A stretch of 12,514 nucleotides of DNA from positions 1-12,514 of the forward strand of contig PFVN01000048.1 in NCBI GenBank assembly GCA_002790635.1, given 5' to 3'. Each line of letters starts with the position of its first letter. The first letter of the stretch is position 1. Shown in pieces: positions 1 to 12,514 of the stretch. Below the pieces are notes generated by a model. It made no database searches and was not told the origin of the DNA. It saw nothing but the letters and a program-made list of their open reading frames with translations. The position numbers were made by a program, and so were the translations under genes. This stretch comes from Candidatus Moranbacteria bacterium CG_4_9_14_3_um_filter_42_9 (GTDB taxonomy: Bacteria > Patescibacteriota > Minisyncoccia > Moranbacterales > UBA2206).

Positions 1-342
1 ACCGGAAACGAGAATGATGACATCCAAGCTTTTGGACATTTTGATAGCGTCTACCGCGATACCGACATCCCAATCGCCCTTCTTGGCGCCGCCCGGGAAA
101 ATTTGGAGGTCCTTAGTTTTCACATCAAAACCTTGCTTTTCCAGGGCTTCAAAAAAGTTTTTCTCCTGGCCCTCAACGGTCGCAATGCCATAGGCGATAG
201 CCCGGATGAGTTTCCGATCGCCGACCGCTTCTTTTAGAATAGCCCCGAAATTGACCTTCTTTTTATAAAGGACCCGGCCGGAATAATACATGTTTTGGAT
301 GTCCACTAACATCCCCACGCGTTGTTCTTTATATATGCTCAT
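1..342 (-). CDS. NYN-domain (LabA/DUF88-like) putative ribonuclease, 3'-truncated by window edge
   Basis: The reading frame starts at an ATG at 342 and stays open to the window edge (114 residues seen, C-terminus missing). The N-terminus GMLVDIQNMYY carries the conserved Asp (D14) and Asn (N17) of NYN/PIN-like nucleases. Residues 88-98 (KGDWDVGIAVD) match the second acidic motif, with D92 and D98 as likely metal ligands. The visible part ends in VIILVSG, where the family normally continues with further acidic residues. NYN proteins of the LabA/DUF88 type are predicted metal-dependent RNases; the substrate here is unknown. There is no clear Shine-Dalgarno sequence, and the leader abuts a dispersed repeat at 354-425. 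A strong terminator separates it from rpsO upstream, so it is probably transcribed separately. An internal Met at residue 11 is a less likely start. Confidence 0.85.
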   Translation of the reverse strand, partial: MSIYKEQRVGMLVDIQNMYYSGRVLYKKKVNFGAILKEAVGDRKLIRAIAYGIATVEGQEKNFFEALEKQGFDVKTKDLQIFPGGAKKGDWDVGIAVDAIKMSKSLDVIILVSG

Positions 343-353
343 AATTATTTTTT

Positions 354-425
354 GTCATTCCAGCGAAAGCGGGAATCTAGTATCAAATTTTTTTTGACTG
401 GATCCCCGATCAGGTCGGGGATGAC
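354..425. repeat. Imperfect palindromic dispersed repeat (REP/dRS3-like)
   Basis: The left end GTCATTCC and right end GGGGATGAC are inverted relatives. The left arm contains ATTCC(N9)GGGAATCTAG and the right arm CTGGATCCCCGA(N5)TCGGGGAT. The left arm resembles the neisserial dRS3 core (ATTCCC-N8-GGGAAT), and such palindromes are common between genes in several phyla. It lies just upstream of the NYN start codon and has no coding potential. Whether it is mobile or acts as a transcript 3' structure cannot be told from one copy. Confidence 0.6.
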
Positions 426-455
426 ATCTGGTTATGTGTTATTTAAAATTAGTGT

Positions 456-483
456 AAAAAAACAGGGCGCACCCTGTTTTTTT
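456..483 (-). terminator. Intrinsic, potentially bidirectional terminator of rpsO
   Basis: This is a perfect 12-bp inverted repeat with a 4-nt loop: A7-CAGGG, loop CGCA, CCCTG-T7. Read on the minus strand it gives a CAGGG/CCCTG hairpin followed by seven Ts, seven bases after the rpsO stop. The flanking A and T runs would let it work in both directions. Confidence 0.85.
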
Positions 484-490
484 AAGTTGG

Positions 491-760
491 TTATCCTTTA
501 AGTTCCAGTTTTTTGATCAATTTCTTGTAAGCTTTTTCGTTAGTCTTTTCCAGATACATCAGGAGTTTTTTTCGCTTGGAAACCATCTTGAGCAAACCTC
601 TTCGGGAATGAAAATCCTTCGGGTTTTTTTTGAGATGGTCAGTCAGTTTCCTGATCTTTTCAGTAAAAAGGGCGATCTGGTATTCCGGTGAACCGGTATC
701 TTTTTCATGCCTCTTCACTTCGGAAGTCACTTTTTCTTTTTGCTTGTGCGTCAGCGCCAT
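491..760 (-). CDS. rpsO: 30S ribosomal protein S15
   Basis: S15 binds 16S rRNA at the helix 20-22 junction and helps build the platform of the small subunit. The product is 89 aa, the usual bacterial length, with the family signatures TGSPEYQIALFTEKI (22-36) and FHSRRGLLKMVSKRKKLL (50-67). Most species have HHSRRGL where this one has FHSRRGL. The ATG at 760 gives the canonical MALT N-terminus. No Shine-Dalgarno sequence precedes it. The 63-nt spacer to the upstream gene (761-823) has no obvious strong structure, so I cannot say whether an S15 autoregulatory element is present. An intrinsic terminator follows directly at 456-483. The pnp gene that often follows rpsO is absent. Confidence 0.98.
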   Translation of the reverse strand: MALTHKQKEKVTSEVKRHEKDTGSPEYQIALFTEKIRKLTDHLKKNPKDFHSRRGLLKMVSKRKKLLMYLEKTNEKAYKKLIKKLELKG

Positions 761-823
761 ATTTTTTCAGCTAAACATTCGCTCCGATAAATCGTGAGCC
801 AAAGTTTGCTAGGTAATTATTTA

Positions 824-1072
824 TTAATGATTCTCTTCGGCAAGTTCAATTTTTCTTTTTACTATTTGTAATTCAGAAGGGCTAACTTTCTCTATGTGAT
901 CTATTATTTTCTTTTTGAACCCTTCAGCTTCGTCCAGCACGATTTCATCCGAACTCACTAACTCCAGTCCCATTGCCAATCTTCTTAATTGATGTACGTT
1001 CAGGCGGCTGAGCTGGTCAATTACATGACCCTTAATTGGATCAAAATTCTCCATTTTTGGAAATTCTACCAT
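824..1072 (-). CDS. Small conserved-looking protein of unknown function
   Basis: This is an 82-residue soluble protein from an ATG at 1072. I do not recognise the family. It has no signal peptide or membrane segment, is rich in Leu, Glu, Lys and Ile, and is probably mostly helical, ending in a charged segment (EKVSPSELQIVKRKIELAEENH). The middle segment VIDQLSRLNVHQLRRLAMGLEL looks like an amphipathic helix pair. The frame can be extended upstream to a GTG at 1117. I prefer the ATG at 1072 because a promoter-like TGGACA-17-TAAACT (1136 to 1108) would place the GTG upstream of the transcript start. A third possible start is the ATG at 1054. The gene lies 63 nt upstream of rpsO on the same strand and may be co-transcribed with it. 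Confidence 0.6.
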   Translation of the reverse strand: MVEFPKMENFDPIKGHVIDQLSRLNVHQLRRLAMGLELVSSDEIVLDEAEGFKKKIIDHIEKVSPSELQIVKRKIELAEENH

Positions 1073-1107
1073 AAAATTGTGAAATAAAATTAGATGATCA
1101 TAAACTA

Positions 1108-1136
1108 AGTTTATCACGAAAAAAACTTTTTGTCCA
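1108..1136 (-). promoter_or_regulatory. Putative sigma-70-type promoter for the small gene and rpsO
   Basis: On the minus strand, TGGACA (1136-1131; 5 of 6 to TTGACA) is followed after exactly 17 nt by TAAACT (1113-1108; 4 of 6 to TATAAT). The predicted transcript start near 1101 leaves a leader of about 29 nt before the ATG at 1072. The assignment is by motif match only. Confidence 0.4.
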
Positions 1137-1204
1137 GTTTTCCGGCTAAAGTATTGAATTTTTCGTCCTTTGAGAGTAAATTGTATATATATAGTTAAAT
1201 ATTT

Positions 1205-1419
1205 GGAAGCGTGCCAGAGTCCTGCCTGCCGGCGGTTAGGGGTTTCCGCCCCAGGGCGGACCTCAGCCCGAGGCTGATGAGCCTAGGGTTCAAGCCTAGG
1301 GCTGGGAATGGGACGCTTTGTCCCGCTTAAAACGGAAGAGTGGCCGAGTGGGTCGGATGCGAACGAGCATTCGACGGGTTGCAAAAGGCAACCCCGGCAA
1401 ACACGAGGCTCGGTTTTTT
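1205..1419 (+). ncRNA. Candidate structured RNA with tRNA-Ser-like 5' ends
   Basis: A non-coding stretch, about 67% GC over 1211-1310, is packed with consecutive hairpins. The first part folds as a four-way junction. The closing stem AAGCGTGCC (1207-1215) pairs with GGGACGCTT (1310-1318) with one mismatch. It encloses a nested hairpin at 1219-1261 (GTCC/GGAC, GCC/GGC, GGCGG/CCGCC), TCAGCC-CGA-GGCTGA (1263-1277), and CCTAGG-GTTCAAG-CCTAGG (1282-1300). The second part begins with an exact copy of the tRNA-Ser 5' end at 1334. It has 7-bp stems at 1354-1373 (with one G-U pair) and 1376-1394, and CCGAG (1344-1348) can pair with CTCGG (1409-1413) just before TTTTTT (1414-1419), as in an intrinsic terminator. 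A TATAGT box at 1190-1195 could be its -10 element, but no well-spaced -35 is visible. It could equally be decayed tRNA genes plus inserted palindromic elements. Confidence 0.4.
1334..1351 (+). repeat. Exact duplicate of the tRNA-Ser 5' end
   Basis: GGAAGAGTGGCCGAGTGG is identical to bases 1-18 of the genuine tRNA-Ser starting at 1447, 113 bp downstream. A diverged third relative, GGAAGCGTGCCAGAGT, starts at 1205. After base 18 this copy loses all resemblance to a tRNA: it has no usable anticodon loop, no T-arm and no CTCTTCC acceptor partner. I read it as a partial duplication, not a second tRNA gene. Confidence 0.7.
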
Positions 1420-1446
1420 GATCGAGGCATTGCCGAGAAATATTTT

Positions 1447-1533
1447 GGAAGAGTGGCCGAGTGGTTGAAGGCGCAGCTCTCGAAAAGCTGTAAGGGAGAA
1501 ATCTCTTCGTGAGTTCGAATCTCACCTCTTCCG
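1447..1533 (+). tRNA. tRNA-Ser (anticodon CGA)
   Basis: This is a full class II tRNA. Acceptor GGAAGAG (1447-1453) pairs with CTCTTCC (1526-1532), followed by discriminator G1533. The D-arm is GCC-GAGTGGTTGAA-GGC. The anticodon arm is CAGCT-CTCGAAA-AGCTG with anticodon CGA, reading UCG serine codons. There is a long variable arm (GGGAGAAATCTCTTC region) and a T-arm GTGAG-TTCGAAT-CTCAC (1509-1525). The long variable arm and discriminator G are serine identity elements. No CCA is encoded, so the 3' end must be added after transcription. Confidence 0.97.
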
Positions 1534-1622
1534 CTTTATGCGGGGACTCGAAATACATTTTTACGACTGGGGTTTACAGGAGACTATATAAATGTTAGCC
1601 TAAATAAAGGCAAAAAAGCAAT

Positions 1623-2135
1623 ATGCAGCAAATATTAAACCTAATACTGGCAAATAAGGTTACCGTTATCCTGGCAGCTGTAGTTTTCTTGCAGCTGCTC
1701 TGGCTTATAATTCTTCAAGTAAGTTTCAGAAAACTTAAAAAGAAAACTGGTGATTTTAATTTAGGCGAGGTCGGGATTAAAATAGAGGCGGAGTTAGCAA
1801 AGCAGGAAAAATCGATACGCGCTCTAGATAAAGATGTCCAGGAGCTTTACAATATTTCCAACCAAATCAACAATTTATCACTGCGCGGATTGCATAAAGT
1901 CGCGCTGATCAGGTTCAATCCATTCAAGGAATTGGGCGGAGACCAAAGTTTTTCCATCGCGCTTCTCAATGGAAAAAATAATGGAATCGTTATAAGTTCG
2001 CTGCATACGCGGGAAGGAACGCGCGTTTATTCCAAAGCAATTGCCGGAGGAAAAGCCGAAAAATATCCCCTAACCGAAGAAGAGGAACAAGTTGTTAAAA
2101 ACGCAATGGCGCAGGAGACGAAAAAGATAAACTAA
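1623..2135 (+). CDS. DUF4446 family membrane-anchored protein
   Basis: The 170-aa protein begins with a hydrophobic segment (about residues 11-34) that should anchor it in the membrane. A basic linker and a short coiled-coil-like stretch follow (about 50-85, EAELAKQEKSIRALDKDVQEL). The C-terminal half has the DUF4446 signature: ALIRFNPFKELGGDQSFSIA, then NNGIVISSLHTREGTRVYSK, then YPLTEEEEQVV. The family's biochemical role is unknown. In many Firmicutes its gene lies in the parA/parB neighbourhood, which is notable given the parS-like cluster later in this window. Here it lies 11 nt upstream of infB and probably shares its transcript. No strong Shine-Dalgarno sequence precedes the ATG at 1623. 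Confidence 0.85.
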   Translation: MQQILNLILANKVTVILAAVVFLQLLWLIILQVSFRKLKKKTGDFNLGEVGIKIEAELAKQEKSIRALDKDVQELYNISNQINNLSLRGLHKVALIRFNPFKELGGDQSFSIALLNGKNNGIVISSLHTREGTRVYSKAIAGGKAEKYPLTEEEEQVVKNAMAQETKKIN

Positions 2136-2146
2136 AAAGTGTTTAT

Positions 2147-3931
2147 ATGACTGATAGAGAGCCGAAAAAAATTAAACTTCCCGCCATTATCACCGTAAAA
2201 AAATTTGGTGAAGTTTTGGGCATGTCGGTCAGCTCAGTCATTACAGAGCTGATGAAAAATGGAATATTAGCCACCATAAATGAGCAGATAGACTTCGAAA
2301 CAGCTTCCATCTTGGCCCAAGACCTGGGTTATATTGTCGAGGAAGAAATTCTTGAGGAAGGGGAAAAAATGACATTGGAAAAACTGCTGGAGCTGCTCAA
2401 AAAGGAAAAAGAATCGGGAGAACATCTTCAGTCACGGCCCCCAGTCGTCACGATTTTGGGCCATGTTGATCACGGGAAAACCACACTGCTCGATACGATC
2501 CGCAAAACCAATGTGGTGGCCAAAGAATCGGGCGGAATCACTCAGCATATCAATGCTTATCAAGTTAAGAAAAAAGGAAAATTAATTACTTTTGTCGATA
2601 CACCGGGGCACGCGGCTTTCAGCGCGATGCGGGAACGCGGCGTGAGCATTGCCGACATCGCGGTTCTGGTCGTGGCGGCGGACGACGGCGTGCGGCCGCA
2701 GACCAAGGAAGTGATTGAATATCTTTTGACGAAAAAAATTCCGACCATTGTGGCAATAAACAAAATTGACAAGCCGGAAGCTAACATCCAGAAAGTTAAA
2801 AAAGAATTGGGTGACAACGGAATTCTTTTGGAAGACTGGGGCGGGCAAGTTCTGAGCGCTCAAATTTCCGCTAAGAAAAACATCGGGATAGATGATCTTT
2901 TGGAAAACATCTTACTGCTTATGGAAGTAGAAGATTTTCGCGCCGATCAGAAGCGCAGCGCCCTAGGCATCGTTTTGGAATCACATCTCGATCCGCAAAA
3001 AGGTCCAGTCGCTACGGTGCTCATTAAGACCGGAATCCTGAAAGAAGGCCAGGATATCATTGCCGGGTCGGCCTATGGCCGCGTCAGAAGAATTGAAGAT
3101 TTTACCGGAAAACGGATGACCGAAGCTGGGCCGTCAACACCCATCAGCCTCATAGGGCTCAACACCACTTCTAACACGAATGATATTTTGCAAGTAGCGT
3201 CCAACAAATCCGTAGCCAAGGCTCGCTCCGCGGAGATCGGGCAAATGCGAGGGCAAACCGACCCGGGCAGCCAGCTGAGCGCGCAGAAAATATATAAAAC
3301 TATCGCGGATGAAAAAATTAAAAAGTTGAATATTATGGTCAAAGCTGATGTGCAGGGGTCACTGGAAGCTATCGGGCAAATTCTCGGAGAAATAAAATCG
3401 GACGAAGTAGCCGTGGATTATATCGGCACGGGCATCGGCAACATCACCGAATCGGAAGTGCGTCTGGCGCAAAGCGCGGGAGCGGTGATTTTCGGGTTCA
3501 GCGTGGAAATAACGCCGGTCGCCAAAAGAATGGCGGAAACAGACCAGGTGGAAGTCAAAATCTATAAAATAATTTACGAACTAGTCGCGGATATAAAAAA
3601 CCGGCTGGAAGTGATGCTGCCTCCGGAAATCGAACGCGTTGATTTTGGAAAACTCAAAGTCCTGGCGATCTTCCGGACCGGGAAAAAAGATATGATCGTC
3701 GGAGGAAAAGTCAGCACCGGCAAAGTCGTAAAGGGCAGCCTGATCGAGGTGGTCAGAAACGACCAGATTATCGGCAAGGGAAAATTACTTAATCTGCAAC
3801 AAAATAAAGTTGACACTGACGAAGTGGAAAGCGGAAACGAATGTGGGATAACCTTTGACGGAGAAACCAAGATAAAGGAAGGTGACACGCTGGCATTTTA
3901 CAAAGAAGATGTAAAAAAGAAAACCTTGTAG
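2147..3931 (+). CDS. infB: Translation initiation factor IF-2
   Basis: IF-2 is the GTPase that brings fMet-tRNA to the 30S subunit and promotes 70S joining. At 594 aa it is short next to E. coli IF-2 (890 aa): it keeps one IF2_N domain (about residues 10-62) and lacks the long variable N-terminal region. The GTPase motifs are complete: G1 GHVDHGKT (105-112), G2 GGIT (129-132), G3 DTPGH (151-155) with the catalytic His155, G4 NKID (205-208) and G5 SAK (241-243). A beta-barrel domain II (about 270-360) follows, then IF-2 domain 3 with VKADVQGSLEA (398-408) and GFSV (450-453), and a C-terminal domain with GNECGITF (563-570) for fMet-tRNA binding. It is 11 nt after the DUF4446 gene. No Shine-Dalgarno sequence is visible. 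Confidence 0.99.
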   Translation: MTDREPKKIKLPAIITVKKFGEVLGMSVSSVITELMKNGILATINEQIDFETASILAQDLGYIVEEEILEEGEKMTLEKLLELLKKEKESGEHLQSRPPVVTILGHVDHGKTTLLDTIRKTNVVAKESGGITQHINAYQVKKKGKLITFVDTPGHAAFSAMRERGVSIADIAVLVVAADDGVRPQTKEVIEYLLTKKIPTIVAINKIDKPEANIQKVKKELGDNGILLEDWGGQVLSAQISAKKNIGIDDLLENILLLMEVEDFRADQKRSALGIVLESHLDPQKGPVATVLIKTGILKEGQDIIAGSAYGRVRRIEDFTGKRMTEAGPSTPISLIGLNTTSNTNDILQVASNKSVAKARSAEIGQMRGQTDPGSQLSAQKIYKTIADEKIKKLNIMVKADVQGSLEAIGQILGEIKSDEVAVDYIGTGIGNITESEVRLAQSAGAVIFGFSVEITPVAKRMAETDQVEVKIYKIIYELVADIKNRLEVMLPPEIERVDFGKLKVLAIFRTGKKDMIVGGKVSTGKVVKGSLIEVVRNDQIIGKGKLLNLQQNKVDTDEVESGNECGITFDGETKIKEGDTLAFYKEDVKKKTL

Positions 3932-4026
3932 TAGTTAAAAGTTCATAAAGTCACAAAGTTTATAAAGATATAAAAATTGACTTTACGAACTTTAAAAACT
4001 TTACAAACTTTTTAACCTTCAAACTC
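3932..4026. repeat. AT-rich inverted word-repeat spacer between infB and rbfA
   Basis: The left half repeats a word of the type TTCATAAAG (AGTTCATAAAG, TCACAAAG, TTTATAAAG). The right half repeats its reverse complement (CTTTACGAACTTT, AACTTTACAAACTTT). The whole spacer could therefore fold into a long AT-rich hairpin between two co-oriented genes. There is no GC core or U-tract typical of a standard terminator. Confidence 0.6.
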
Positions 4027-4356
4027 ATGCCTAAGCGCATTGATAAAGTCAACGAACTTATTAAACACACTATCGCGGAAATAATTGAGCGGGAACTCAG
4101 CCTGAAGGCTGGGGTTTTTGTTACAGTGGCCAAAGTTGACACTACGGCCGATCTCCGCTATACTCGGGTGTTTGTGAGTATTTTCCCGGAGAAGGAAATC
4201 GACTATGCCATAAAAAGCCTGGGGAAAGAAGCTTACCGGATTCAGGGCAGTTTAAATAAAAAGCTCTCGATGAAGCCGCTCCCCCGGATCGAATTCAAGA
4301 TCGACCTCACGGAATCCAAGGCGGACGAAATAGAGAAATTGTTAAAAGAAATCTGA
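4027..4356 (+). CDS. rbfA: Ribosome-binding factor A
   Basis: RbfA is a small KH-like 30S maturation factor that binds near helix 1 of 16S rRNA and supports late assembly and cold tolerance. The 109-aa product has the family pattern: an N-terminal helix with RIDKVNELIKHTIAEII (4-20), the strand-turn VTVAKVDTTADLRYTRVFVSIF (32-53), and the C-terminal basic segment SLNKKLSMKPLPRIEFKID. Length is close to the usual 110-130 aa. It follows infB, the typical neighbour. It ends in TGA, one of two genes here to do so, which argues that UGA is a normal stop in this organism. No Shine-Dalgarno sequence is seen before the ATG. Confidence 0.97.
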   Translation: MPKRIDKVNELIKHTIAEIIERELSLKAGVFVTVAKVDTTADLRYTRVFVSIFPEKEIDYAIKSLGKEAYRIQGSLNKKLSMKPLPRIEFKIDLTESKADEIEKLLKEI

Positions 4357-4442
4357 AGATGTTCTAATCGTTCGAATGTTCAAATTGTTCTAACGAAGTT
4401 TAATTCAACAAGCCCGCGATAGAACATATAACATTAGAACAT
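4357..4442. repeat. Inverted word-repeat spacer between rbfA and the DHH gene
   Basis: The left half contains four near-tandem words GTTCTAAT, GTTCGAAT, GTTCAAAT, GTTCTAAC with a spacing of 8-9 bp. The right half holds the inverted form. ATGTTCTAAT (4359-4368) is an exact reverse complement of ATTAGAACAT (4433-4442). The right arm ends two bases before the ATG at 4445. Confidence 0.65.
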
Positions 4443-4444
4443 TC

Positions 4445-5404
4445 ATGCATAAATTCGCCCAAGAATTTCACACATTGAACTATGTCATCAGCGGATCGGA
4501 AAAGATTCTTCTTTTCGCGCATGCCAGTCCGGACGGCGATACGACCGGAGCGGTGATCGCCCTCAAAGAGCATATAAAAAATCTGGGGAAAGTCGTTGAT
4601 GTCGCTTGCCCTGATCCTTATCCGGATTTTCTGAAAAATATTTCGGAAGATCAATTTGAATTTCCGGATAACCTCGATCTGGGGAAATATGACTTGGTCA
4701 TTGCCTGCGACAGCGTGGAGCGCGGTTTTGAAAAAATCAAAGATCAACTAAAGGAAAATCAGGTAACGGCCATTATCGATCATCATCCGGACATAACACT
4801 CCGCGGCGACATCAACATCATTGATGCCGATTACTCATCGGTCTGCGAGATCGTCTATGATTTTTTTGATTTCAATAAAATACAAATAAACCGGAAAATG
4901 GCTACTTGGCTCATGCTCGGAATCATTGATGATACGGGCATGTTCAAACATGCCAACACCACCGCCAAAGTAATGGAGATCGCGTCGGATCTCATGAAAA
5001 AAGGAGCGCCCATCGGGAAGATCGTCGAGGCCACCTTCGTCAACAAAAACATTGCCACTCTCCGCCTTTGGGGCCGGGCATTTGAAAAAGCCAAGATAAA
5101 CCAGGAAAACGGTATGATAATTTCGGTGCTGACGCAAAAAGACTTGGAAGAATGCGTGGCGGGAACCGAAGACATCGCCCAAGTGGCTGGCATTCTCAAT
5201 ACGGTTCCCGGCACCAAATTTTCTCTCATTCTTTCCGAGCGTGATGATAATATTATCAAAGGGAGCTTGCGCAGTGAAGAATATAAGGGAGTAGATGTTT
5301 CCGAGATCGCCGCTCGTTTCGGAGGCGGCGGGCACAAATTGGCCAGTGGGTTTGAAGTGAAAGGTAAAATTGTTGAGACGGAGAGCGGATGGGAAATCGT
5401 ATAG
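4445..5404 (+). CDS. nrnA: DHH/DHHA1 phosphoesterase, NrnA-like nanoRNase/pAp phosphatase
   Basis: NrnA-type enzymes degrade 2-5 nt RNA oligomers and dephosphorylate 3'-phosphoadenosine 5'-phosphate with Mn2+. The 319-aa protein has the expected order of metal-binding motifs: HASPDGD (26-32), CDS with D89, DHH (112-114) and IIDDTG with D162. It ends in a DHHA1 domain carrying GGGGHKLASGF (293-303), the substrate-binding glycine loop. Length and motif spacing fit NrnA (about 310-320 aa) better than RecJ. Its place right after infB-rbfA matches a widespread gene order (infB-rbfA-nrnA-truB), although truB is missing here. A palindromic spacer ends two bases before its ATG, so translation starts without a Shine-Dalgarno sequence. 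Confidence 0.88.
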   Translation: MHKFAQEFHTLNYVISGSEKILLFAHASPDGDTTGAVIALKEHIKNLGKVVDVACPDPYPDFLKNISEDQFEFPDNLDLGKYDLVIACDSVERGFEKIKDQLKENQVTAIIDHHPDITLRGDINIIDADYSSVCEIVYDFFDFNKIQINRKMATWLMLGIIDDTGMFKHANTTAKVMEIASDLMKKGAPIGKIVEATFVNKNIATLRLWGRAFEKAKINQENGMIISVLTQKDLEECVAGTEDIAQVAGILNTVPGTKFSLILSERDDNIIKGSLRSEEYKGVDVSEIAARFGGGGHKLASGFEVKGKIVETESGWEIV

Positions 5405-5569
5405 AATTTTTAATTTCCAATTTTTAATTTTTAAACAATTTTTAATGTCTGAATTTTTAAACATTTAAAAATTACAAAATTAAAAATTATAAAATTTGCA
5501 CGACTTTTAATACTGAATTTGTACTAGGCTATATGCTGATGTATTATTAAAAGTGCTTAATTTATTTTT
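5405..5569. repeat. AT-rich inverted word-repeat array plus unique tail before nfo
   Basis: The left part repeats AATTTTTAATT-like words (TTTTTAATTTCC, AATTTTTAATTTTTAAAC, AATTTTTAATG). From about 5461 the inverted form follows (CATTTAAAAATTAC, AAAATTAAAAATTAT). The last 75 bases (5495-5569) are non-repetitive and contain TATGCT (5532-5537), a possible -10 box, but I see no convincing -35 partner. No gene fits in this spacer. Confidence 0.6.
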
Positions 5570-6394
5570 ATGAACATCGGCGCACATGTTTCTATCGCCG
5601 GCGGAATTCAGAATGCTCCCGAACGGGCGGCTGATTTGGGTTGTGAATGCTTTCAGATGTTCACCCGTTCGCCGCAAGGAGGAAAAGCTCCGGAACTTAC
5701 CGAAGATATTATAAAAAAATTTAAGCTACAAGCTAAAAGCTACAAGCTAAAAGCTTGGTATATCCACACTCCCTATTACATAAATTTTGCTTCGGCTAAT
5801 AATCGTATCCGCTACGGTTCGGTCAGCGTGGTGCGCGATGAACTGGAAAGAGGCTCACTTCTCGGCGCTAAATATGTCATGACGCATCTAGGCACCGCCA
5901 AGGAACTGGGGCAAAAAGAAGCGATAAAAAAAGTTATTGAAATGCTCAAAAAAACCTTAGAAGGCTACAAGGGAACGACTAAGCTGCTTTTGGAAAACAG
6001 CGCCGGTGCGGGCGAGATTATCGGCGATAACTTAAAAGAATTGGCGGAAATAATCCAGGGCGTAGAAAATGATGTCATTGCCGGCATTTGTCTGGACACT
6101 CAACATAGCTTTGCTTCCGGTTACGATTGGCGGAATTTTGAAGTGACCATAAAAAAAATTGATGAAGAACTAGGAATCGATAAAATAAAACTCATCCACG
6201 CCAATGACAGCCAGACGGATTTTGGCTCAAATAAGGACCGTCACGCGCATATTGGAGCCGGTAAAATTGGGCTAGTTGCATTTAAAGATATCGTTAAGTT
6301 TGCCGAGGAACACGACATTGACATGATTTTGGAAACAGAGCATGATTTCGTGATGAAAGATATCGCGATTCTCAAAGAATTGCGGGAAAAATAA
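5570..6394 (+). CDS. nfo: Endonuclease IV (AP endonuclease)
   Basis: Nfo cleaves DNA 5' to abasic sites and removes blocked 3' ends in base excision repair, using a three-Zn TIM-barrel active site. The 274-aa product starts MNIGAHVSIAGG, the family N-terminus. The metal ligands line up with the E. coli set: H66 (IHTPYY), H106 (MTHLGT), E142 (LLLENSAG), D176 and H179 (CLDTQH), H210 (LIHAND), D223 and H225 (DRHAH), and E255 (LETE). Nothing essential is missing. A 7-bp tandem repeat is embedded at 5724-5756 and encodes KLQAKSYKLKA, in a surface helix region, without lengthening the protein. The gene lies in the same run as a uracil-DNA glycosylase, which creates the abasic sites Nfo cuts. Confidence 0.97.
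   Translation: MNIGAHVSIAGGIQNAPERAADLGCECFQMFTRSPQGGKAPELTEDIIKKFKLQAKSYKLKAWYIHTPYYINFASANNRIRYGSVSVVRDELERGSLLGAKYVMTHLGTAKELGQKEAIKKVIEMLKKTLEGYKGTTKLLLENSAGAGEIIGDNLKELAEIIQGVENDVIAGICLDTQHSFASGYDWRNFEVTIKKIDEELGIDKIKLIHANDSQTDFGSNKDRHAHIGAGKIGLVAFKDIVKFAEEHDIDMILETEHDFVMKDIAILKELREK
5724..5756 (+). repeat. Short tandem repeat inside nfo
   Basis: The 7-bp unit AGCTAMA is repeated 4.7 times as AGCTACA AGCTAAA AGCTACA AGCTAAA AGCTT. This is two perfect 14-bp periods plus a partial one. Three units (21 bp) restore the reading frame. The word style and period resemble the intergenic word repeats in this window. Confidence 0.85.
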
Positions 6395-6412
6395 TCAACT
6401 AACAAAAACATT

Positions 6413-7654
6413 ATGAATCCAATGTACGGGTTTGATCGAATTTTGCGCCAGCTGGAAAAAGTTAAGGCGCTTATTAATTTAGAGGATAATATTTACAGCC
6501 AGCTACTGGAAGCCCAGAAAGTTTTGGAGGTTAGTATTCCGGTCAAGATGGATAACGGATTCATCAAAATTTTTAAAGGTTTTCGCGCGCAGTACAACAA
6601 CGCCCGCGGTCCTTATAAAGGCGGTATCCGCTTTCATGCGGAAGTGACCTATGACGAAGTGAAGACGCTTTCGGCCTGGATGACTTTCAAAACAGCGGTG
6701 GTGGATATTCCGCTCGGCGGCGGCAAAGGCGGCGTCATAGTTGACCCGAAAACTCTTTCCGCGCGTGAACTGGAAGCGCTTTCACGGGGCTACATCCGCG
6801 CCATCCATAAATTTATCGGACCGAACATTGACGTTCCCGCGCCGGACGTGAACACAGACCCAAAAATCATGGGCTGGATGCTGGATGAATATGAAAAAGT
6901 CGCCGGACATCACGCCCCAGGCGTCATCACCGGAAAACCCTTAAGCATCGGCGGCTCAGAAATTCGGTCATTTTCTACGGCGCAAGGCGGAGCTTATGTT
7001 TTGGACGAAGCCGCCAAAAAGATCGGACTCAAAAGAGGCGCAACGGTGGCTATCCAGGGTTTTGGCAACGCGGGCAGCCACATGGCTCTCATTCTCGAAA
7101 AAATGGGTTATAAAATCACCACGGTCAGTGATTCCAAGGGCCTGGTCGTCAATTGCTCAGGTCTCAACATAAATGAATTGGCCGTTTATAAAGTGAAAAC
7201 CGGATCGGTGAAAGATTTTCCGAGCGGAGAAAAAATCGAAGGATCGAAGTGCCTAGAACAAGACGCGGACATCCTTATTCCAGCCGCTTTGGAAAACAGC
7301 ATTAACAAGGATAACGCGCCAGCCATCAAAGCTAAGCTTATTGTAGAATTGGCCAACGGTCCGGTGACTCCGGAAGCAGATGAAATTTTGAAAGCGAAAG
7401 GCATCTTGGTCGTGCCGGACATATTGGCCAATGCTGGAGGCGTGGCAGTAAGTTATATCGAACAAGTGCAGAACGCCTATAATTTTTATTGGACCAAGGA
7501 CAAAGTTCTTCGCAAACTGGAAGGCATAATGTGCCGGTCCTTTGCGGAAATATGGGATATAAAAGAAAAATATAAAACGGATATGCGAACTGCGGCATAT
7601 ATTCTTTCCGTGGAACGCGTAGCGCAAGCCATGCGCGACCGCGGCTGGGGGTAA
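6413..7654 (+). CDS. gdhA: Glutamate dehydrogenase (ELFV family, hexameric class)
   Basis: GDH interconverts glutamate with 2-oxoglutarate and ammonia using NAD(P). The 413-aa length and motifs match the short hexameric type. GPYKGGIRFH (66-75) holds the substrate-binding Lys69; TFKTA has Lys93; PLGGGKGG (100-107) has the catalytic Lys105; and PAPDVNTD (142-149) has the catalytic Asp145. The Rossmann domain carries GFGNAG (216-221). Asp240 sits at the end of the second strand (TVSDSKG), a position often linked to cofactor choice; I would not assign NAD versus NADP. The usual GGS-x-G-R-x-x-AT segment reads GGSEIRSFSTAQG (180-192), a slight departure. ATG 6413 gives MNPMYG; Met4 is an alternative start. 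No Shine-Dalgarno sequence is visible. Confidence 0.96.
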   Translation: MNPMYGFDRILRQLEKVKALINLEDNIYSQLLEAQKVLEVSIPVKMDNGFIKIFKGFRAQYNNARGPYKGGIRFHAEVTYDEVKTLSAWMTFKTAVVDIPLGGGKGGVIVDPKTLSARELEALSRGYIRAIHKFIGPNIDVPAPDVNTDPKIMGWMLDEYEKVAGHHAPGVITGKPLSIGGSEIRSFSTAQGGAYVLDEAAKKIGLKRGATVAIQGFGNAGSHMALILEKMGYKITTVSDSKGLVVNCSGLNINELAVYKVKTGSVKDFPSGEKIEGSKCLEQDADILIPAALENSINKDNAPAIKAKLIVELANGPVTPEADEILKAKGILVVPDILANAGGVAVSYIEQVQNAYNFYWTKDKVLRKLEGIMCRSFAEIWDIKEKYKTDMRTAAYILSVERVAQAMRDRGWG

Positions 7655-7658
7655 AAAT

Positions 7659-8162
7659 ATGAAAGTAGTAATTATATCAGATATACACGACAACGCGGTT
7701 AACTTAAAAAAGGTTTTAGATTTTTGCGCGCGAGAAAAAATAGAAACGATAATTTGCTGCGGCGATCTAGGGAGCGCTGAAACTCTGAAGTATCTATCTG
7801 ATAATTTTTCCGGAACTATCCACTTGGCATTCGGCAACGCGGACTGGAGTTGGGAAAAAGAATACGCAGCGTTGGGAAAACATAAGGACATTCTTTTTTA
7901 TAAAGATTTCGGCGAAGCGGAAATAGGTCAAAAAAAAGTTGCCTTTGTTCATTATCCGAAAATGGCTAAAGAGCTTTGCCAGAGCGGAAAATATGGCTTT
8001 GTTTTCCATGGCCATACGCATAAGCCTTGGGAAGAAAATACGGGCCAGTGCAAAATATTAAATCCCGGCAATGTCGCCGGAACTTTTTATGCTCCGACCT
8101 TTGCAGTATGGGAGACCAACAGCGATAAATTCAGTTTGATACGAGTCCACGAGCTGAAATAA
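7659..8162 (+). CDS. YfcE/MJ0936-family metallophosphoesterase
   Basis: A compact 167-aa calcineurin-like phosphoesterase with all five metal-site motifs in order: DIH (D8, H10), GDLG (D36), GNAD (N60), FVHYP (H98) and GHTH (H119, H121), followed by the LNPGNV strand (134-139) typical of the MJ0936/YfcE group. Members are dinuclear-metal phosphodiesterases with broad activity in vitro; the natural substrate is usually unknown. The start lies four bases after the gdhA stop. The five Gs at the end of gdhA form one of the few Shine-Dalgarno-like sequences in this run, so translation is probably coupled to gdhA. An AT-rich inverted array follows its stop codon. Confidence 0.93.
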   Translation: MKVVIISDIHDNAVNLKKVLDFCAREKIETIICCGDLGSAETLKYLSDNFSGTIHLAFGNADWSWEKEYAALGKHKDILFYKDFGEAEIGQKKVAFVHYPKMAKELCQSGKYGFVFHGHTHKPWEENTGQCKILNPGNVAGTFYAPTFAVWETNSDKFSLIRVHELK

Positions 8163-8269
8163 TTTTAAATTTTCAATTTTTAATTTTAAATCAATTTCAA
8201 ATTACTAAATTAACAAATTTTTAAAATTTAAACATTTATATTTCATTTAAAATTTAGACTTTAAAATTA
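8163..8269. repeat. AT-rich inverted word-repeat spacer before the glycosylase gene
   Basis: About 107 bases are composed almost entirely of AATTTTAAATTTTC/AATTTTTAATTTT words, followed by related inverted words (AATTTTTAAAATTTAAAC, TTTAAAATTTAGAC, TTTAAAATTA). It is close in style to the array at 5405-5494. The last copy runs into the ATG at 8270, leaving no room for a Shine-Dalgarno sequence. Confidence 0.55.
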
Positions 8270-8860
8270 ATGGCATCGAAGACCGAACAATTAGATAAAC
8301 TCAATGGTTTCATGTCCGAGTGCTCCAAATGTGCTTTGCGCGCCGGTTGCACGCGCGTCGTTCCGGGTGAAGGCAGCGCGGAAGCGGAGATTATGTTTAT
8401 CGGCGAAGGTCCCGGAAAAAAAGAAGATGAGCTCGGCCGGCCGTTTGTCGGCGCCGCCGGAAAATTTCTGGATGAGATGCTCGCCATCATAAAATTAAAA
8501 AGAGAACAAGTCTACATCGCCAACGTGGTGAAGTGCCGCCCGCCGGGCAATCGCGACCCCCTGCCGGAAGAGGTGGCAGAGTGCTGGCCGTGGCTCGTGG
8601 AGCAGATAAAAATAATCGATCCGAAACTCATCGTGACGCTCGGACGGCACAGCATGGAAAGATTTTTGCCCAACCAAAAAATTTCCGAAGTCCACGGGAA
8701 AGCAATGCGAAGAGAAATTCCGGAAATCGGCAAACGAGTTTTCTACACCTTGTATCACCCCGCCGCCGCGCTCTACAATGGCAGCATGCGGGAAGTGCTG
8801 ATCAAGGATTTTCGGCGCATTCTTAGAGTTCTAGAGAAAATAAAAAAAGAAAGCCTATAA
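8270..8860 (+). CDS. Family 4 (4Fe-4S) uracil-DNA glycosylase
   Basis: This enzyme removes uracil from DNA as the first step of base excision repair. Four cysteines fit the Fe-S cluster pattern of the family: C18, C21, C89 and C105. Motif 1 is GEGPGKKEDELGRPFVGAAGK (45-65). The cluster-proximal segment is ANVVKCRPPGNRDP (84-97). The C-terminal active-site motif is YHPAA (162-166). Length (196 aa) is typical of the UDGa group known from Thermus and archaea. With Nfo in the same run it makes a matched glycosylase/AP-endonuclease pair. The AT-rich array reaches its ATG. A weak AAGCG/CGCTT hairpin with a T-rich tail (8878-8900) lies just after the stop and could be a poor terminator. Confidence 0.95.
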   Translation: MASKTEQLDKLNGFMSECSKCALRAGCTRVVPGEGSAEAEIMFIGEGPGKKEDELGRPFVGAAGKFLDEMLAIIKLKREQVYIANVVKCRPPGNRDPLPEEVAECWPWLVEQIKIIDPKLIVTLGRHSMERFLPNQKISEVHGKAMRREIPEIGKRVFYTLYHPAAALYNGSMREVLIKDFRRILRVLEKIKKESL

Positions 8861-8887
8861 TAAAGCCAAAATTTCCGAAGCGCTCGA

Positions 8888-8917
8888 TTGACCGCTTTTG
8901 TGTTTTGTGGTTGTATT
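8888..8917 (+). promoter_or_regulatory. Possible promoter of the PRTase-like gene
   Basis: TTGACC (8888-8893; 5 of 6 to consensus) is followed after 18 nt by TGTATT (8912-8917; 4 of 6). The start codon at 8962 would then have a leader of about 38 nt containing the strong AGGGAGG ribosome binding site at 8946-8952. It is a motif match only. Confidence 0.35.
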
Positions 8918-8961
8918 AGTAGCTGGGACTTTGAAAAATTGAACCAGGGAGGCGGGAGAAC

Positions 8962-9423
8962 ATGAGCGACGATCCAATAGCGTATGACTGGGACCAGTTT
9001 GAGGAATATTGCAAGCTATTAGCAGAAAAAATAGATCTTAGTAAGGGTGCGGCTATTGCCGTGTTAATGACGAGCAGTGAAGATGGAGTTTACATTAGTC
9101 GAATGCTCGAACACTTTAAAAACGAAGTGCCTTTTGAACTCAACTATGAGAGCGTGGGAAAAGGCGTAAATGCCACATTTGAATTAATTGGGCCATTTCC
9201 GCCGGGTCTCAATAATCGCCTAGTTTATTTGGTTTCCGGAGCAGCATTTTATGGGCGGAAACTAAGACAAGCGGCCAAGGATCTGCAGGATCACGGAAGT
9301 AAGGTACTATTCGTGGTAATTCACTGCTTTCGGGAAAGTAAAATAAAGCCCCACATTCACTTGTTTGAGGTGGAAGGCAAAATCCGTGACATTTTGCATC
9401 CGTGGGACAACAACAAGGGCTAG
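8962..9423 (+). CDS. Degenerate phosphoribosyltransferase-like protein
   Basis: The 153-aa protein has the overall pattern of type I phosphoribosyltransferases of the COG2236 sort. There is a leading W-x-x-F-x-x-x-C-x-x-L-A-x-K-I helix (10-24), a strand AAIAVLMTSSEDGVYISRML (30-49), and the strand-loop-helix LVYLVSGAAFYGRKLRQAAKDL (87-108) followed by VLFVVIHC (115-122). It closes with IRDILHPWD (141-149), like the I-x-F-P-W-E end of xanthine-type PRTases. The PRPP-binding VDD-x-x-DTG loop, however, reads VSGAAFYG, so both acidic residues are gone. I infer a PRTase fold that has lost catalysis and may bind a ligand or regulate; the family link is by eye. A strong AGGGAGG precedes the ATG, and a terminator overlaps the stop. 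Confidence 0.6.
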   Translation: MSDDPIAYDWDQFEEYCKLLAEKIDLSKGAAIAVLMTSSEDGVYISRMLEHFKNEVPFELNYESVGKGVNATFELIGPFPPGLNNRLVYLVSGAAFYGRKLRQAAKDLQDHGSKVLFVVIHCFRESKIKPHIHLFEVEGKIRDILHPWDNNKG

Positions 9424-9445
9424 GAGATTCTTCCTGGCCTTTTAT
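9415..9445 (+). terminator. Intrinsic terminator overlapping the PRTase-like stop codon
   Basis: AAGGGCTAGGA (9415-9425) pairs with TCCTGGCCTTT (9432-9442), with two wobble or near-wobble positions, around a 6-nt loop GATTCT. A TTTTATATT tail follows. The TAG stop codon (9421-9423) is inside the 5' arm. It separates this gene from the convergent membrane-protein gene. Confidence 0.7.
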
Positions 9446-9469
9446 ATTATAAAATAAAAACTAAAAGTG

Positions 9470-11209
9470 TCAAGTAGTTGAATCTGATGCATAAATTTCG
9501 TTTCTGGCCAATAGGCCCAGCACTAGCCACAGCAGTATTTGTCCCTGCTGGATATCCCACAAATAGTGATCGAAAAGTGCTATGACTAAAAAACCTATTA
9601 GCAAAGCCTTAAAAACGATTTGAGTATTGAGTTCAGACTCGCTTGTTCCACGTGAAACAGTTTTTGATTCGGAACTGGCTTCGGATTGTTCCGTGCCTGC
9701 CCCGTCAAATGTTCCCCGCGGAACATTCTGGCTAGGGTGGAACATTTTCCAAAGGAACCAAGCAAAAAGCGAAAACTCAACCAGACCCAGTTCTGCCCAA
9801 ATCAGTAAAAAAACATTGTGGACTGGCTGCATCTGCCAAGTTAAAAGTGTCTCCTGCGAATACATTTGCATTTCTGAAACGAACTGACCCGAACCAATTC
9901 CAGCCAATAGATTCCCTGATATGATACTTTTGGCGATGTTTAGGTATAAAACTCTTTCGCGGGCAGTTTGGATAAAGATTGAGGTGAAATCCGGTTTGAT
10001 CAGAAAAATGACCAAAATTAAGCCAAACATAAATAAGCCAATTTGCATGAAGTTAACCACTAGCCATTTTCGAAATGTTCCTTGTGGAACATTGAACTTA
10101 TAACATAAATAGCAAAGCGCTAAAACAAGGCCTAAAATGGCCGATTTTGAGAAGGTCAAGATTCCCGCGACTATTTGAATGCCTAGGATAAGGGCAAAAA
10201 TATAGCGGTTGTAACGTCCATAATTGTTCCACGTGAAACAATTTTGATTAGCGGAGAAAGTATTTTGCGCTGAATATATTTTGCCTTGATCGTTATCCCA
10301 GCTAGCATATCGAGCGCCGCCGACAGGCTTAGATTGTTTCACGTGGAACAAGCGCCAATGCGCCAAAGTCAGGATAATGCTTAAAAACAAAAAACCTCCC
10401 AGAATGTTTGGATGCGGAAATAAGCCATAAGCGCGGATATATTTCGAGCCGTCCAGCACTATTTTAGCCACGCCCGGTAAATCTGGCGAAATCAGGCTTT
10501 CTTTAAGCCAAAATAGGCCCAAGGAATGTTGCAAAGTTACCTGCGAAATGCCAATCATGGCGTTAATTAGGCCAATAGTGATAATTATACGAAAAACATT
10601 CCGGAAAATGTTCCACCCGCCTCGCGTCGACGGCAGGTCTCGGCGAGTCGAGGCGGGCGTGGAACATTTTTGATTAAGAGCTAAAAACAGGTATATCAGA
10701 TAAAACTCAAATAGTTTGAAAGATCTATACAGGGCAATTGTTGGGCTATCAGACCACGCAATTGAGATAAAAGACCAGGCAACAAAAATTAGTGGGATAA
10801 ACAAAAATGAGGAGACTCCCGGCTTGGTCTGTAAAATGTTCCACGCCGGTTTGGCTAAAAGTTCCACGCTGGCCGAGTTCGATGTTCCACGTGAAACATT
10901 ATGATCCCGAGGAAGGGTGCCGTCGATTGGAGAGTGTTTTTTTAAGGCTGACGATGCACGAGGAGTAAATATTGACAAATAAGATATTTTATTGTATAGT
11001 ATAGAAATAAGCCAAGCTGCTATGGTTAGCGTTAAAAATACATCTGACAGGTATAAATATGACCCGGTATACTCATTGAAGGTTCCGCCTAGCAAAATAT
11101 CCGACAGAACTTTTCTGACGGAAAGCATGCTGGTCGCCAAAAAACCGTAAAAAAACCAGATCTCCGGCTGAGCTTTGAAGTTGTTCCATGCTTCCGCAAG
11201 TCGATCCAT
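9470..11209 (-). CDS. O-antigen ligase/polymerase (Wzy/WaaL)-like membrane protein
   Basis: The 579-aa protein has about 10-12 hydrophobic segments (near residues 17-33, 54-73, 132-152, 164-178, 203-224, 262-283, 336-371, 382-404, 465-487, 531-547 and 555-568). The Wzy_C family hallmarks are RAYGLFPHPNILGG (259-272) and HNVFLLIWAELGLVEF (464-479). Such proteins polymerise or ligate glycans on the outer face of the cytoplasmic membrane; the substrate here is unknown. The loops are abnormally long and hydrophilic (about 83-130, 180-200, 287-334, 488-530). They carry peptides such as NVSRGT, FHVKQ, CFTWN, NVPQGT and NVPRGT, which are translations of parS-like DNA words. The stop is TGA. A TATAAT box just upstream implies a very short leader with no Shine-Dalgarno sequence. 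Confidence 0.85.
   Translation of the reverse strand: MDRLAEAWNNFKAQPEIWFFYGFLATSMLSVRKVLSDILLGGTFNEYTGSYLYLSDVFLTLTIAAWLISILYNKISYLSIFTPRASSALKKHSPIDGTLPRDHNVSRGTSNSASVELLAKPAWNILQTKPGVSSFLFIPLIFVAWSFISIAWSDSPTIALYRSFKLFEFYLIYLFLALNQKCSTPASTRRDLPSTRGGWNIFRNVFRIIITIGLINAMIGISQVTLQHSLGLFWLKESLISPDLPGVAKIVLDGSKYIRAYGLFPHPNILGGFLFLSIILTLAHWRLFHVKQSKPVGGARYASWDNDQGKIYSAQNTFSANQNCFTWNNYGRYNRYIFALILGIQIVAGILTFSKSAILGLVLALCYLCYKFNVPQGTFRKWLVVNFMQIGLFMFGLILVIFLIKPDFTSIFIQTARERVLYLNIAKSIISGNLLAGIGSGQFVSEMQMYSQETLLTWQMQPVHNVFLLIWAELGLVEFSLFAWFLWKMFHPSQNVPRGTFDGAGTEQSEASSESKTVSRGTSESELNTQIVFKALLIGFLVIALFDHYLWDIQQGQILLWLVLGLLARNEIYASDSTT
9644..9659 (+). promoter_or_regulatory. parS-like site 1 (exact)
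   Basis: TGTTCCACGTGAAACA fits the ParB-binding consensus TGTTNCACGTGAAACA at every position. It is read on the minus strand as part of TVSRGTS (residues 517-523 of the membrane protein). Confidence 0.7.
9710..9725 (+). repeat. parS-like variant
   Basis: TGTTCCCCGCGGAACA keeps both outer arms (TGTTCC/GGAACA) but has CCGC instead of ACGT in the centre, two changes from TGTTCCACGTGGAACA. It encodes NVPRGTF (495-501). Confidence 0.5.
10076..10091 (+). repeat. parS-like variant
   Basis: TGTTCCTTGTGGAACA has intact outer arms and two changes in the centre relative to TGTTCCACGTGGAACA. It encodes FNVPQGTF (372-379). Confidence 0.5.
10225..10240 (+). promoter_or_regulatory. parS-like site 2 (exact)
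   Basis: TGTTCCACGTGAAACA, the same strand and sequence as site 1, but read in a different frame of the gene (NCFTWNN, residues 323-329). Confidence 0.7.
10335..10350 (-). promoter_or_regulatory. parS-like site 3 (exact, inverted)
   Basis: The plus strand reads TGTTTCACGTGGAACA, the exact reverse complement of the other three sites. It encodes LFHVKQ (287-292). Confidence 0.7.
10605..10670. repeat. parS-like palindrome split by a 42-bp GC-rich palindromic insert
   Basis: AAAATGTTCCAC (10605-10616) and GTGGAACATTTT (10659-10670) are the two halves of one perfect palindrome. The 42 bp between them (10617-10658) are GC-rich, beginning CCGCCTCG and ending CGAGGCGGGC, so they form their own inverted repeat. 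The insert length is a multiple of three and adds 14 residues (PASTRRDLPSTRGG) between KCST and WNIF without breaking the frame. Confidence 0.75.
10883..10898 (+). promoter_or_regulatory. parS-like site 4 (exact)
   Basis: TGTTCCACGTGAAACA again, read as NVSRGT (residues 104-109). Half-sites TGTTCCACG (10837) and GTTCCACG (10861) lie 20-45 bp away. Confidence 0.7.
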
Positions 11210-11220
11210 AATTTGTTTTT

Positions 11221-11226
11221 ATTATA
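11221..11226 (-). promoter_or_regulatory. -10 box of the membrane-protein gene
   Basis: On the minus strand this is a perfect TATAAT whose 3' end lies 11 nt before the ATG at 11209. Transcription would start only about 5 nt before the start codon, giving a nearly leaderless mRNA. No good -35 is seen at the usual distance. Confidence 0.4.
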
Positions 11227-11251
11227 ACTGATTAAATAAATTAAAACTATA

Positions 11252-11280
11252 TTGACTTTGCAATCAGCGGCATATATGCT
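11252..11280 (+). promoter_or_regulatory. Putative promoter of the nitronate-monooxygenase-like gene
   Basis: TTGACT (11252-11257; 5 of 6) and TATGCT (11275-11280; 4 of 6) are spaced by exactly 17 nt and point away from the membrane-protein gene. A second TTGACA at 11293-11298 has no well-spaced -10. The leader to the ATG at 11350 would be about 60 nt and carries a strong GGGAGGTG at 11338-11345. Confidence 0.5.
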
Positions 11281-11349
11281 TTGATATATTTATTGACAGT
11301 AACTTACAAATTAAAAAATCTAAAATAAAAAAATTTCGGGAGGTGTAAC

Positions 11350-12514
11350 ATGCGAAAAGATTTTTTGCAAGAGCTTCAAAATGCATGTCACAAGGTTATT
11401 CAAGGAGGCATGGGCGTTGGAGTTTCCTCATGGAAGATGGCCCGTGCTTGGGCAGTGGCTGGCGGCATCGGTGTTGTTTCCGGAGCCGCGATTCACATTG
11501 TCTTGGCCCGCCGCTTGCAGTTGGGCGATCCGGAAGGACATCTGAAAAGAGCTTTCGACGCTTTTCCCTTCAGGAATGTGGCGAAGCGGGTGTGGAAGCG
11601 ATATTTTATTCCGTTCGGGAAAAGGACGGGTGAGCCGTTCCGGAATCCCCAATTGCTCACTCTGCAGCCCAGTCGCGAACTGATTGAGCTCATTGTAGTT
11701 TCCAACTTCGTTGAAGTTTATTTGAGCAAGGAGGGTCACTCTGGACCAGTTGGGATAAATTATCTGGAAAAGATCCAAATTCCGCATATCCATTCTCTTC
11801 TTGGTGCGATGCTGGCCGGCGTGGACTTTGTCACCGTAGGTGCGGGTATTCCTATCCAATTTTCAGCCATCATGGAAAAATTAGCCAACGGAGAAATGGC
11901 GGAGTATCGGCTCGAGGTGACAGATGCCGTGGCGGGAGAATTCTCCATGCGGTTCGATCCACGGGAATTTTTTTCCGAGTATGCTTTTCCAAAACTGATG
12001 CGACCGGCTTTTCTGCCGATAATCGCGTCGAATGTTTTGGCCAGTATGCTAGCCAAGAAGCTTCCGGGGCAAGTTGATGCTTTCGTCATTGAATGTCCAA
12101 CGGCGGGCGGGCATAATGCTCCTCCACGGGATAAAAACGCTCGCAATGAGCGAGGCGAGCCAATCTATGGACCCAAAGACGTAGTTGATCTGGAGGCAAT
12201 TAGAAAACTAGGAATTCCATTTATCCTGGCAGGCGGTTATGCTCATCCAGAAAATTATGTAGAGGCTCTGCGGGCTGGCGCCATAGCGATTCAAGTCGGA
12301 AGCATCGCCGAGCTTTCGGACGATTCCGCCTTAGTAACGCATCTGCGCCGAGTTGCCAGAGCCATGGCTTTTATGGGGAAGCTGCTCGTTGTTACCTCAT
12401 GGGTTTCCCCAACTGGGTATCCGTTCAAGACGGCGATGATCACCGGAACCTCGTCTGATCTGATTGTTTATGCCCAGCGTCCACGGATATGTGACTTGGG
12501 ACTCTTGCGCGAGC
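11350..12514 (+). CDS. Nitronate monooxygenase-like FMN TIM-barrel protein, 3'-truncated by window edge
   Basis: The frame runs open from the ATG at 11350 to the edge (388 residues seen). The N-terminus VIQGGMGVGVSSWKMARAWAVAGGIGVVSG (16-45) is the hallmark of the 2-nitropropane dioxygenase/FabK group of FMN enzymes. Further motifs are ECPTAGGHNAPPRD (248-261), with the His often involved in catalysis; ILAGGYAHPE (292-301); and GAIAIQVGSIAELSDDS (310-326), which should hold the FMN phosphate. VSPTGYPFKTA (352-362) matches the late family motif. The group includes nitronate monooxygenase, enoyl-ACP reductase FabK and PfaD-type reductases. An insertion-rich middle (about 50-115 and 180-215) makes nitronate or acyl substrates hard to choose between. 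It has a strong Shine-Dalgarno sequence, unlike most genes here. Confidence 0.88.
   Translation, partial: MRKDFLQELQNACHKVIQGGMGVGVSSWKMARAWAVAGGIGVVSGAAIHIVLARRLQLGDPEGHLKRAFDAFPFRNVAKRVWKRYFIPFGKRTGEPFRNPQLLTLQPSRELIELIVVSNFVEVYLSKEGHSGPVGINYLEKIQIPHIHSLLGAMLAGVDFVTVGAGIPIQFSAIMEKLANGEMAEYRLEVTDAVAGEFSMRFDPREFFSEYAFPKLMRPAFLPIIASNVLASMLAKKLPGQVDAFVIECPTAGGHNAPPRDKNARNERGEPIYGPKDVVDLEAIRKLGIPFILAGGYAHPENYVEALRAGAIAIQVGSIAELSDDSALVTHLRRVARAMAFMGKLLVVTSWVSPTGYPFKTAMITGTSSDLIVYAQRPRICDLGLLRE

Follow-up and report, generated by a model that had tools for sequence, protein, structure and literature searches.

The window analysed here comprises positions 1 to 12,514 (12,514 nucleotides) of contig PFVN01000048.1 from Candidatus Moranbacteria bacterium CG_4_9_14_3_um_filter_42_9; Moranbacteria are tiny, mostly uncultured bacteria. 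Towards its right end lies a minus-strand gene, referred to below as the host gene, whose product is a predicted O-antigen-ligase-type membrane enzyme. The protein matches the Wzy_C family with an E-value of 6.6e-8 and a score of 32.9 bits, barely exceeding the cut-off of 31.7. It is like the Wzy_C / WaaL O-antigen ligases in having the PF04932 match and the conserved core residues, and there is one departure, in length: host ORFs that carry sites and exceed 440 aa have a median length of 590 (n=44), against 492.5 for 14 site-less Wzy_C ORFs, which are largely another clade. Host ORF length increases with the number of sites (rho 0.55). The enzyme is under purifying selection, with dN/dS of 0.23-0.36 in 19 overlapping pairs when site codons are excluded. 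The gene order in the window (udg, a short ORF, the host gene and NMO) is unlike that of the relatives, so we infer that rearrangements have not parted the sites from the gene. A 153-aa ORF beside the host gene (8962-9423) has no Pfam match and is phosphoribosyltransferase-like by eye.

Table 1. Coordinates of the host gene and of the sites and partial sites within it.
Feature	Coordinates	Strand	Remarks
Host gene, predicted O-antigen ligase / Wzy_C family membrane protein, 579 aa	9470..11209	-	PF04932
Exact parS-like site	9644..9659	+	read in host gene as TVSRGT
Near-site	9710..9725	.	arms intact, centre CCGC; encodes NVPRGT, two synonymous changes off exact site (sequence reading)
Half-site GTGGAACA	9737..9744	+
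Near-site	10076..10091	.	arms intact, centre TTGT; encodes NVPQGT (sequence reading)
Exact parS-like site	10225..10240	+	read in host gene as CFTWNN
Exact parS-like site	10335..10350	-	read in host gene as LFHVKQ
Split site	10609..10666	.	half-parS, 42-bp GC-rich imperfect hairpin insert, half-parS
Half-site TGTTCCAC	10837..10844	+
Half-site GTTCCAC	10861..10867	+
Exact parS-like site	10883..10898	+	read in host gene as NVSRGT

The host ORF holds six sites, of which four are exact TGTTYCACGTGRAACA and two are near-sites (Table 1). The site is a 16-bp palindrome of the TGTTNCACGTGNAACA type, as expected of a chromosomal parS, for which the consensus is given as mainly TGTTNCACGTGAAACA in a review (PMC7022226). 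A first-pass annotation of the window had reported three copies of TGTTCCACGTGAAACA on the plus strand and one inverted, two near-sites with both arms kept, and half-sites adding to the density; the exact sites and near-sites are where it placed them, and the density is borne out by three half-sites and a split site. The stretch around the split site (10605-10672) has a DNA fold z of -6.6 with the parS arms counted in the stem. The further view of the annotation, that the window has no sites elsewhere and that the cluster is not due to chance, agrees with a search at up to three mismatches, which returned 12 strand-matches (six places) where 0.09 are expected. Genome-wide, too, there are few copies at a single locus, with zero exact sites outside the host gene in the 107 contigs of the assembly (801,629 bp, 80.56% complete). 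When up to two mismatches are allowed, TGTTNCACGTGNAACA matches the six cluster places and one two-mismatch place on contig C60. The reversed pattern gives two matches per strand in the same search and the lone C60 match is therefore at chance level; the two near-sites are counted because they are placed within the cluster.

The sites are widespread among relatives. A search of genome contigs with eight host proteins yielded 65 named loci, and most of the strongest are labelled Candidatus Moranbacteria or Moraniibacteriota. Exact TGTTNCACGTGNAACA is present in 118 of 184 genomes: 107 of the 128 in the order, among them that of the window, and 11 of the 56 other members of the class. The reversed-pattern control was found in none of the 184. 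At 66 loci (the window and the 65 found by homology), 361 exact sites are inside Wzy_C ORFs and two are outside in 1.10 Mb, with at least one site in 52 of the loci and 0-18 sites per gene. Because these loci were chosen via the host gene, and because L143 and L144 are near-duplicates and L172 and L183 come from a single genome, the whole-assembly and per-genome searches are the fair test of exclusivity. In the 22 genomes for which places were read there is one cluster each, split over contig ends in G001 and G050 and consisting of a single site in G039. Among the matches listed for other genomes, there are two groups in G174 and G090, parts at contig ends in G079 and G092, and a lone extra TGTTGCACGTG-type match in G037 and G107. 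The first-pass annotation regarded so dense a cluster in a single coding gene as unusual; the clustering stands, and for this ortholog it is the usual state across the lineage.

There are departures of several types. No exact site is found in 21 of the 128 genomes of the order. One of these (G022) has a Wzy_C gene truncated by a contig end. Three more of the 21, from family f10 (G049, G053 and G058; L205-L207), encode ParB as well as a Wzy_C homolog whose sites all have 1-3 mismatches, and their centromere may have another sequence or place. Among the class relatives (G128-G183), 45 of 56 are without TGTTNCACGTGNAACA, yet 51 of 56 have a ParB match, and a different parS sequence is possible. 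In 18 of 35 cluster regions fetched (17 genomes), the sites are within Wzy_C ORFs, most of which hold all of the sites (the exceptions are L115 with 3/9, L116 with 3/4, and L133 with 3/5), and in the other 17 no Wzy_C ORF holds the sites. Four further clusters (L083, L084, L199 and L200) are inside a Wzy_C gene by tblastn. In a tree of 75 genes, built by a quick method, 43 site-bearing genes including that of the window cluster together (support 94) with zero site-less members, and the site-bearing label requires 4 changes versus 22.8 when shuffled. Outside this cluster, L181 (one site) groups with genes that have no site, and L115/L116 and L175 are on branches of their own.

The sites are read in all three codon frames (165, 108 and 90; this total of 363 counts two sites twice because of overlapping ORFs). 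Each frame gives a distinct peptide, NV[PS]R[GE]T, [ML]FHV[EK][HQ] and C[SF]TWN[NI], and counting from the peptides, 165/168, 108/113 and 90/91 of their occurrences in host genes are exact parS (363/372 in total). The same peptides occur only four times in other ORFs of these loci, three of them exact, which is too few for a control. Placing the sites on an alignment of 44 hosts, which left out 11 site-bearing ORFs of 440 aa or less, located 332 of 333 sites: 312 are in five loops, 19 are in the large loop (18 of them at one conserved position), and one is elsewhere. Outside the sites, the net charge of the five loops ranges from +1.3 to +4.0. The loops with which they alternate are neutral or negative, except for the TM5/6 loop (+1.4) and a short TFSKSA turn (+1.0); by the positive-inside rule this alternation suggests that the five site loops are on the cytoplasmic side, the helix borders being drawn from hydropathy and manual reading.

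One explanation of these patterns is that the peptides themselves are selected as conserved functional loops of the ligase and that the DNA match is a by-product. The core 347 sequence 'YLNVSRGTI', one position conserved in one frame in 18 of the 44 genes, is in keeping with it. However, the same loops hold three unrelated peptides, one from each frame, and the sites do not survive synonymous change: when codons were permuted synonymously within each gene, keeping protein and codon usage, 9.3 of the 363 sites remained (maximum 19 in 200 runs). Arrays without a Wzy_C ORF, which make up 17 of the 35 cluster regions, also argue against it. A peptide-driven motif is refuted as a complete account, though it may hold for one conserved position, and we regard selection on the protein as an extremely improbable origin of the sites.

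Individual sites come and go. In some pairs of genes they are well kept; L157 and L170, for example, share 102 site codons with four unshared at a dS of 1.56, and L173 and L180 share 18 with none unshared. In 10 of 19 pairs, unshared site codons outnumber the shared ones (e.g. 6 shared versus 44 unshared in L137/L138). That sites outlast silent positions is true for some pairs only and is not a general rule; from the two patterns together it appears that the cluster is retained while individual sites turn over. The near-sites fit into the same loops, with exact sites in the loop of 9710 in 34 of 44 genes, the window included, and in that of 10076 in 38 of 44, the window excluded. The near-site at 9710 looks like a copy broken by synonymous changes.

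The turnover of positions, together with a copy number that ranges so widely per gene and GC-rich inserts at some sites (27 in 16 genes), is also what might come from a palindromic repeat that is merely parS-like, is mobile or amplifies, and inserts itself into genes. A repeat family that spreads or is amplified was the alternative offered by the first-pass annotation, and it fares poorly: there is hardly any dispersal (361 sites inside and two outside, and one cluster in each of the 22 genomes), the letters fit the parS consensus, and nearly all of the relatives have a ParB. A dispersed family is ruled out by the near-absence of copies beyond the cluster, and we consider a repeat element in the broader sense very unlikely.

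Several arrays occupy the place of the gene in its absence. In L157, L170 and L179 the Wzy_C gene is between rbfA and neighbour families f15-f12, and in L101 and L125 a gene-less parS array occupies this slot. Similarly, L126 has an array between cca and f15, a slot filled by the gene in L150, L156, L163 and L169 (f3 as cca, f6 as gyrA and similar labels were assigned by reading of sequences). With the sites masked, a search of 18 array loci for Wzy_C remnants gave none that is convincing: 16 were without a match, L131 has a match with an E-value of 0.024, and that in L126, located beside the array, corresponds to residues 8-32 of the L150 ORF. Arrays outside Wzy_C may have a spacing of ~60-63 bp, which is regular in L096 and L132 and partly so in L122.

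We used dnaA as a proxy for the origin and searched 18 genomes, 13 of which have exact sites (G023 being without placement). The first-pass annotation expected parS near the origin, and in relatives this holds: the cluster and dnaA are on one contig in 8 of the 13 site-bearing genomes, at 0.8 kb (G040), 15.5 kb (G004), 23 kb (G041), 24 kb (G068), 28 kb (G054), 32 kb (G057), 53 kb (G007) and 55 kb (G017). They are on separate contigs in G005, G010, G016 and G046. Short contigs bound the distances in G040 (80 kb), G007 (141 kb) and G017 (233 kb), and the fair tests are G041 and G068, with contigs larger than 800 kb. GC skew changes sign at dnaA on contig C9 of G017; in G041, for which half as many points were sampled, there is a weak skew, and the sampling interval with the cumulative minimum is the one just before dnaA.

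The confinement of the sites to one gene could reflect operators for another regulator of the ligase gene, or a ParB that acts as a local regulator only, and P. aeruginosa ParB can repress neighbouring promoters according to the same review (PMC7022226). Such operators would account poorly for the closeness to dnaA and the lack of a second cluster in the 22 genomes read, for gene-less arrays in the same slot in three loci, and for sites that are distributed throughout the ORF and not at a promoter. We therefore view a purely regulatory role in place of a centromere as highly improbable.

A ParB (TIGR00180) match is present in 164 of the 184 genomes (161 over the cut-off), the 164 including a weak match (E 2.9e-8) in the organism's own assembly. 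This latter match (G000:C42:2043-2285; L008) lies beside an ORF, and reading of the sequences suggests that it is a DNA methyltransferase with an N-terminal ParB_N domain and that the ORF is serine-recombinase-like. No chromosomal ParB was found in the own assembly (80.56% complete), nor in G018. The first-pass annotation counted a genome encoding no ParB against a parS assignment; the own assembly formally shows this state, but 27 of 33 other genomes of the same family have a ParB match, and with the incompleteness of the assembly this leads us to read the absence as a gap and to think that a ParB is probably present in this very cell. Solved ParB/Spo0J structures can be aligned with the ParB of a relative, at E-values down to 1.2e-55. 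The DNA-contact residues proposed as a check are conserved: among the 30 best-scoring ParBs of relatives, position 173 is R in 30/30 and position 201 is G in 29/30, the parS-type state, and position 179 is K in 19/30 (Caulobacter numbering, counted from GKSR). PMC7383237 describes the roles of 173 and 201 in parS-type contacts, and K179 as a state that permits Noc-type binding if 173 and 201 are changed as well. The parB gene is not beside the cluster, being on another contig in 20 of 22 genomes and 132 kb away in G041.

In ParABS systems, ParB loads at parS and spreads as a CTP clamp, ParA moves the complex, and SMC is recruited. Few copies at a single locus, their closeness to dnaA in relatives, and a ParB of the lineage with parS-contact residues all point to the same function, and judging from sequence comparisons we conclude that the sites are very probably parS and the cluster the organism's origin-proximal ParABS centromere, embedded in O-antigen-ligase-type coding sequence. 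In such a centromere, ParB dimers would load at the exact sites and spread as CTP clamps across the host gene and its neighbours, ParA would move the ParB complex, and the complex would recruit SMC. Selection would maintain the site cluster in the gene and not the position of each site, and selection on the enzyme would limit sites to loops between membrane helices, where the three site peptides are tolerated; sites would arise and decay within the ORF. A more far-reaching proposal, which we give an even chance, is a dual-coded centromere: the gene would be the lasting seat of the centromere across the candidate phylum, with enzyme and centromere co-selected, sites born and dying in loop codons, and the array surviving alone at the locus after loss of the ORF (or the reverse). 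If so, ParB loading may in addition link segregation with the expression of the envelope enzyme.

The usual description of a bacterial centromere is of short sites dispersed in the vicinity of the origin, and the parS sites of Bacillus, Pseudomonas and Caulobacter are, as far as known, spread over several genes and spacers. These clusters are like that of Moranbacteria in the 16-bp consensus and in having several origin-near sites, whereas in Moranbacteria nearly the whole set is within one ORF. In P. aeruginosa, 9 of 10 predicted parS sites are 'most likely' in coding sequences (PMC4368675), and both parS3 and parS4 are called intergenic in the review (PMC7022226); 4 of the 10 are near oriC, compared with up to 18 in one gene in Moranbacteria, in all frames and kept with the ortholog. 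Myxococcus xanthus is an example of a many-site parS set (22 are listed in PMC7022226), and it may be closer to the arrays found in other Moranbacterial families. Intragenic parS is thus already known, and what appears to be new is that one conserved gene carries almost the whole cluster, in three frames. In the open-licence PMC literature we found no paper linking parS with Patescibacteria, the candidate phyla radiation or Parcubacteria, none linking Moranbacteria with chromosome segregation, and, among those on intragenic parS, no case of a cluster in one conserved gene. This could therefore be the first centromere map in these candidate phyla, and usable to locate origins and test segregation. 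That in many genera the codons of one conserved enzyme seem to carry a whole site cluster also offers a natural experiment on one DNA stretch with two codes, on the birth and decay of parS, and on a transcribed gene as a ParB loading zone.

We note two further features. The inserts within parS sites of host genes are GC-rich and often palindromic, and the 16 genes concerned (L143 and L144 being near-identical) include those of the window, L134, L137, L150, L162 and L168. Most are of in-frame length (24/27), 23/27 share one insertion point (CACG^TG or the mirror image of it), and none of 16 such insert patterns in the flanks is GC-rich. Of the hairpins counted, 5 of the 14 in host genes and none of the 63 in flanks are bracketed by parS halves. 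The inserts may represent a REP-like element that targets parS, or a route by which sites are made or lost. Separately, an apparent partial duplicate of the 5' end of tRNA-Ser, a repeat recognized by eye, is present at 1321-1445 of the window, upstream of tRNA-Ser(cga) at 1447-1534.
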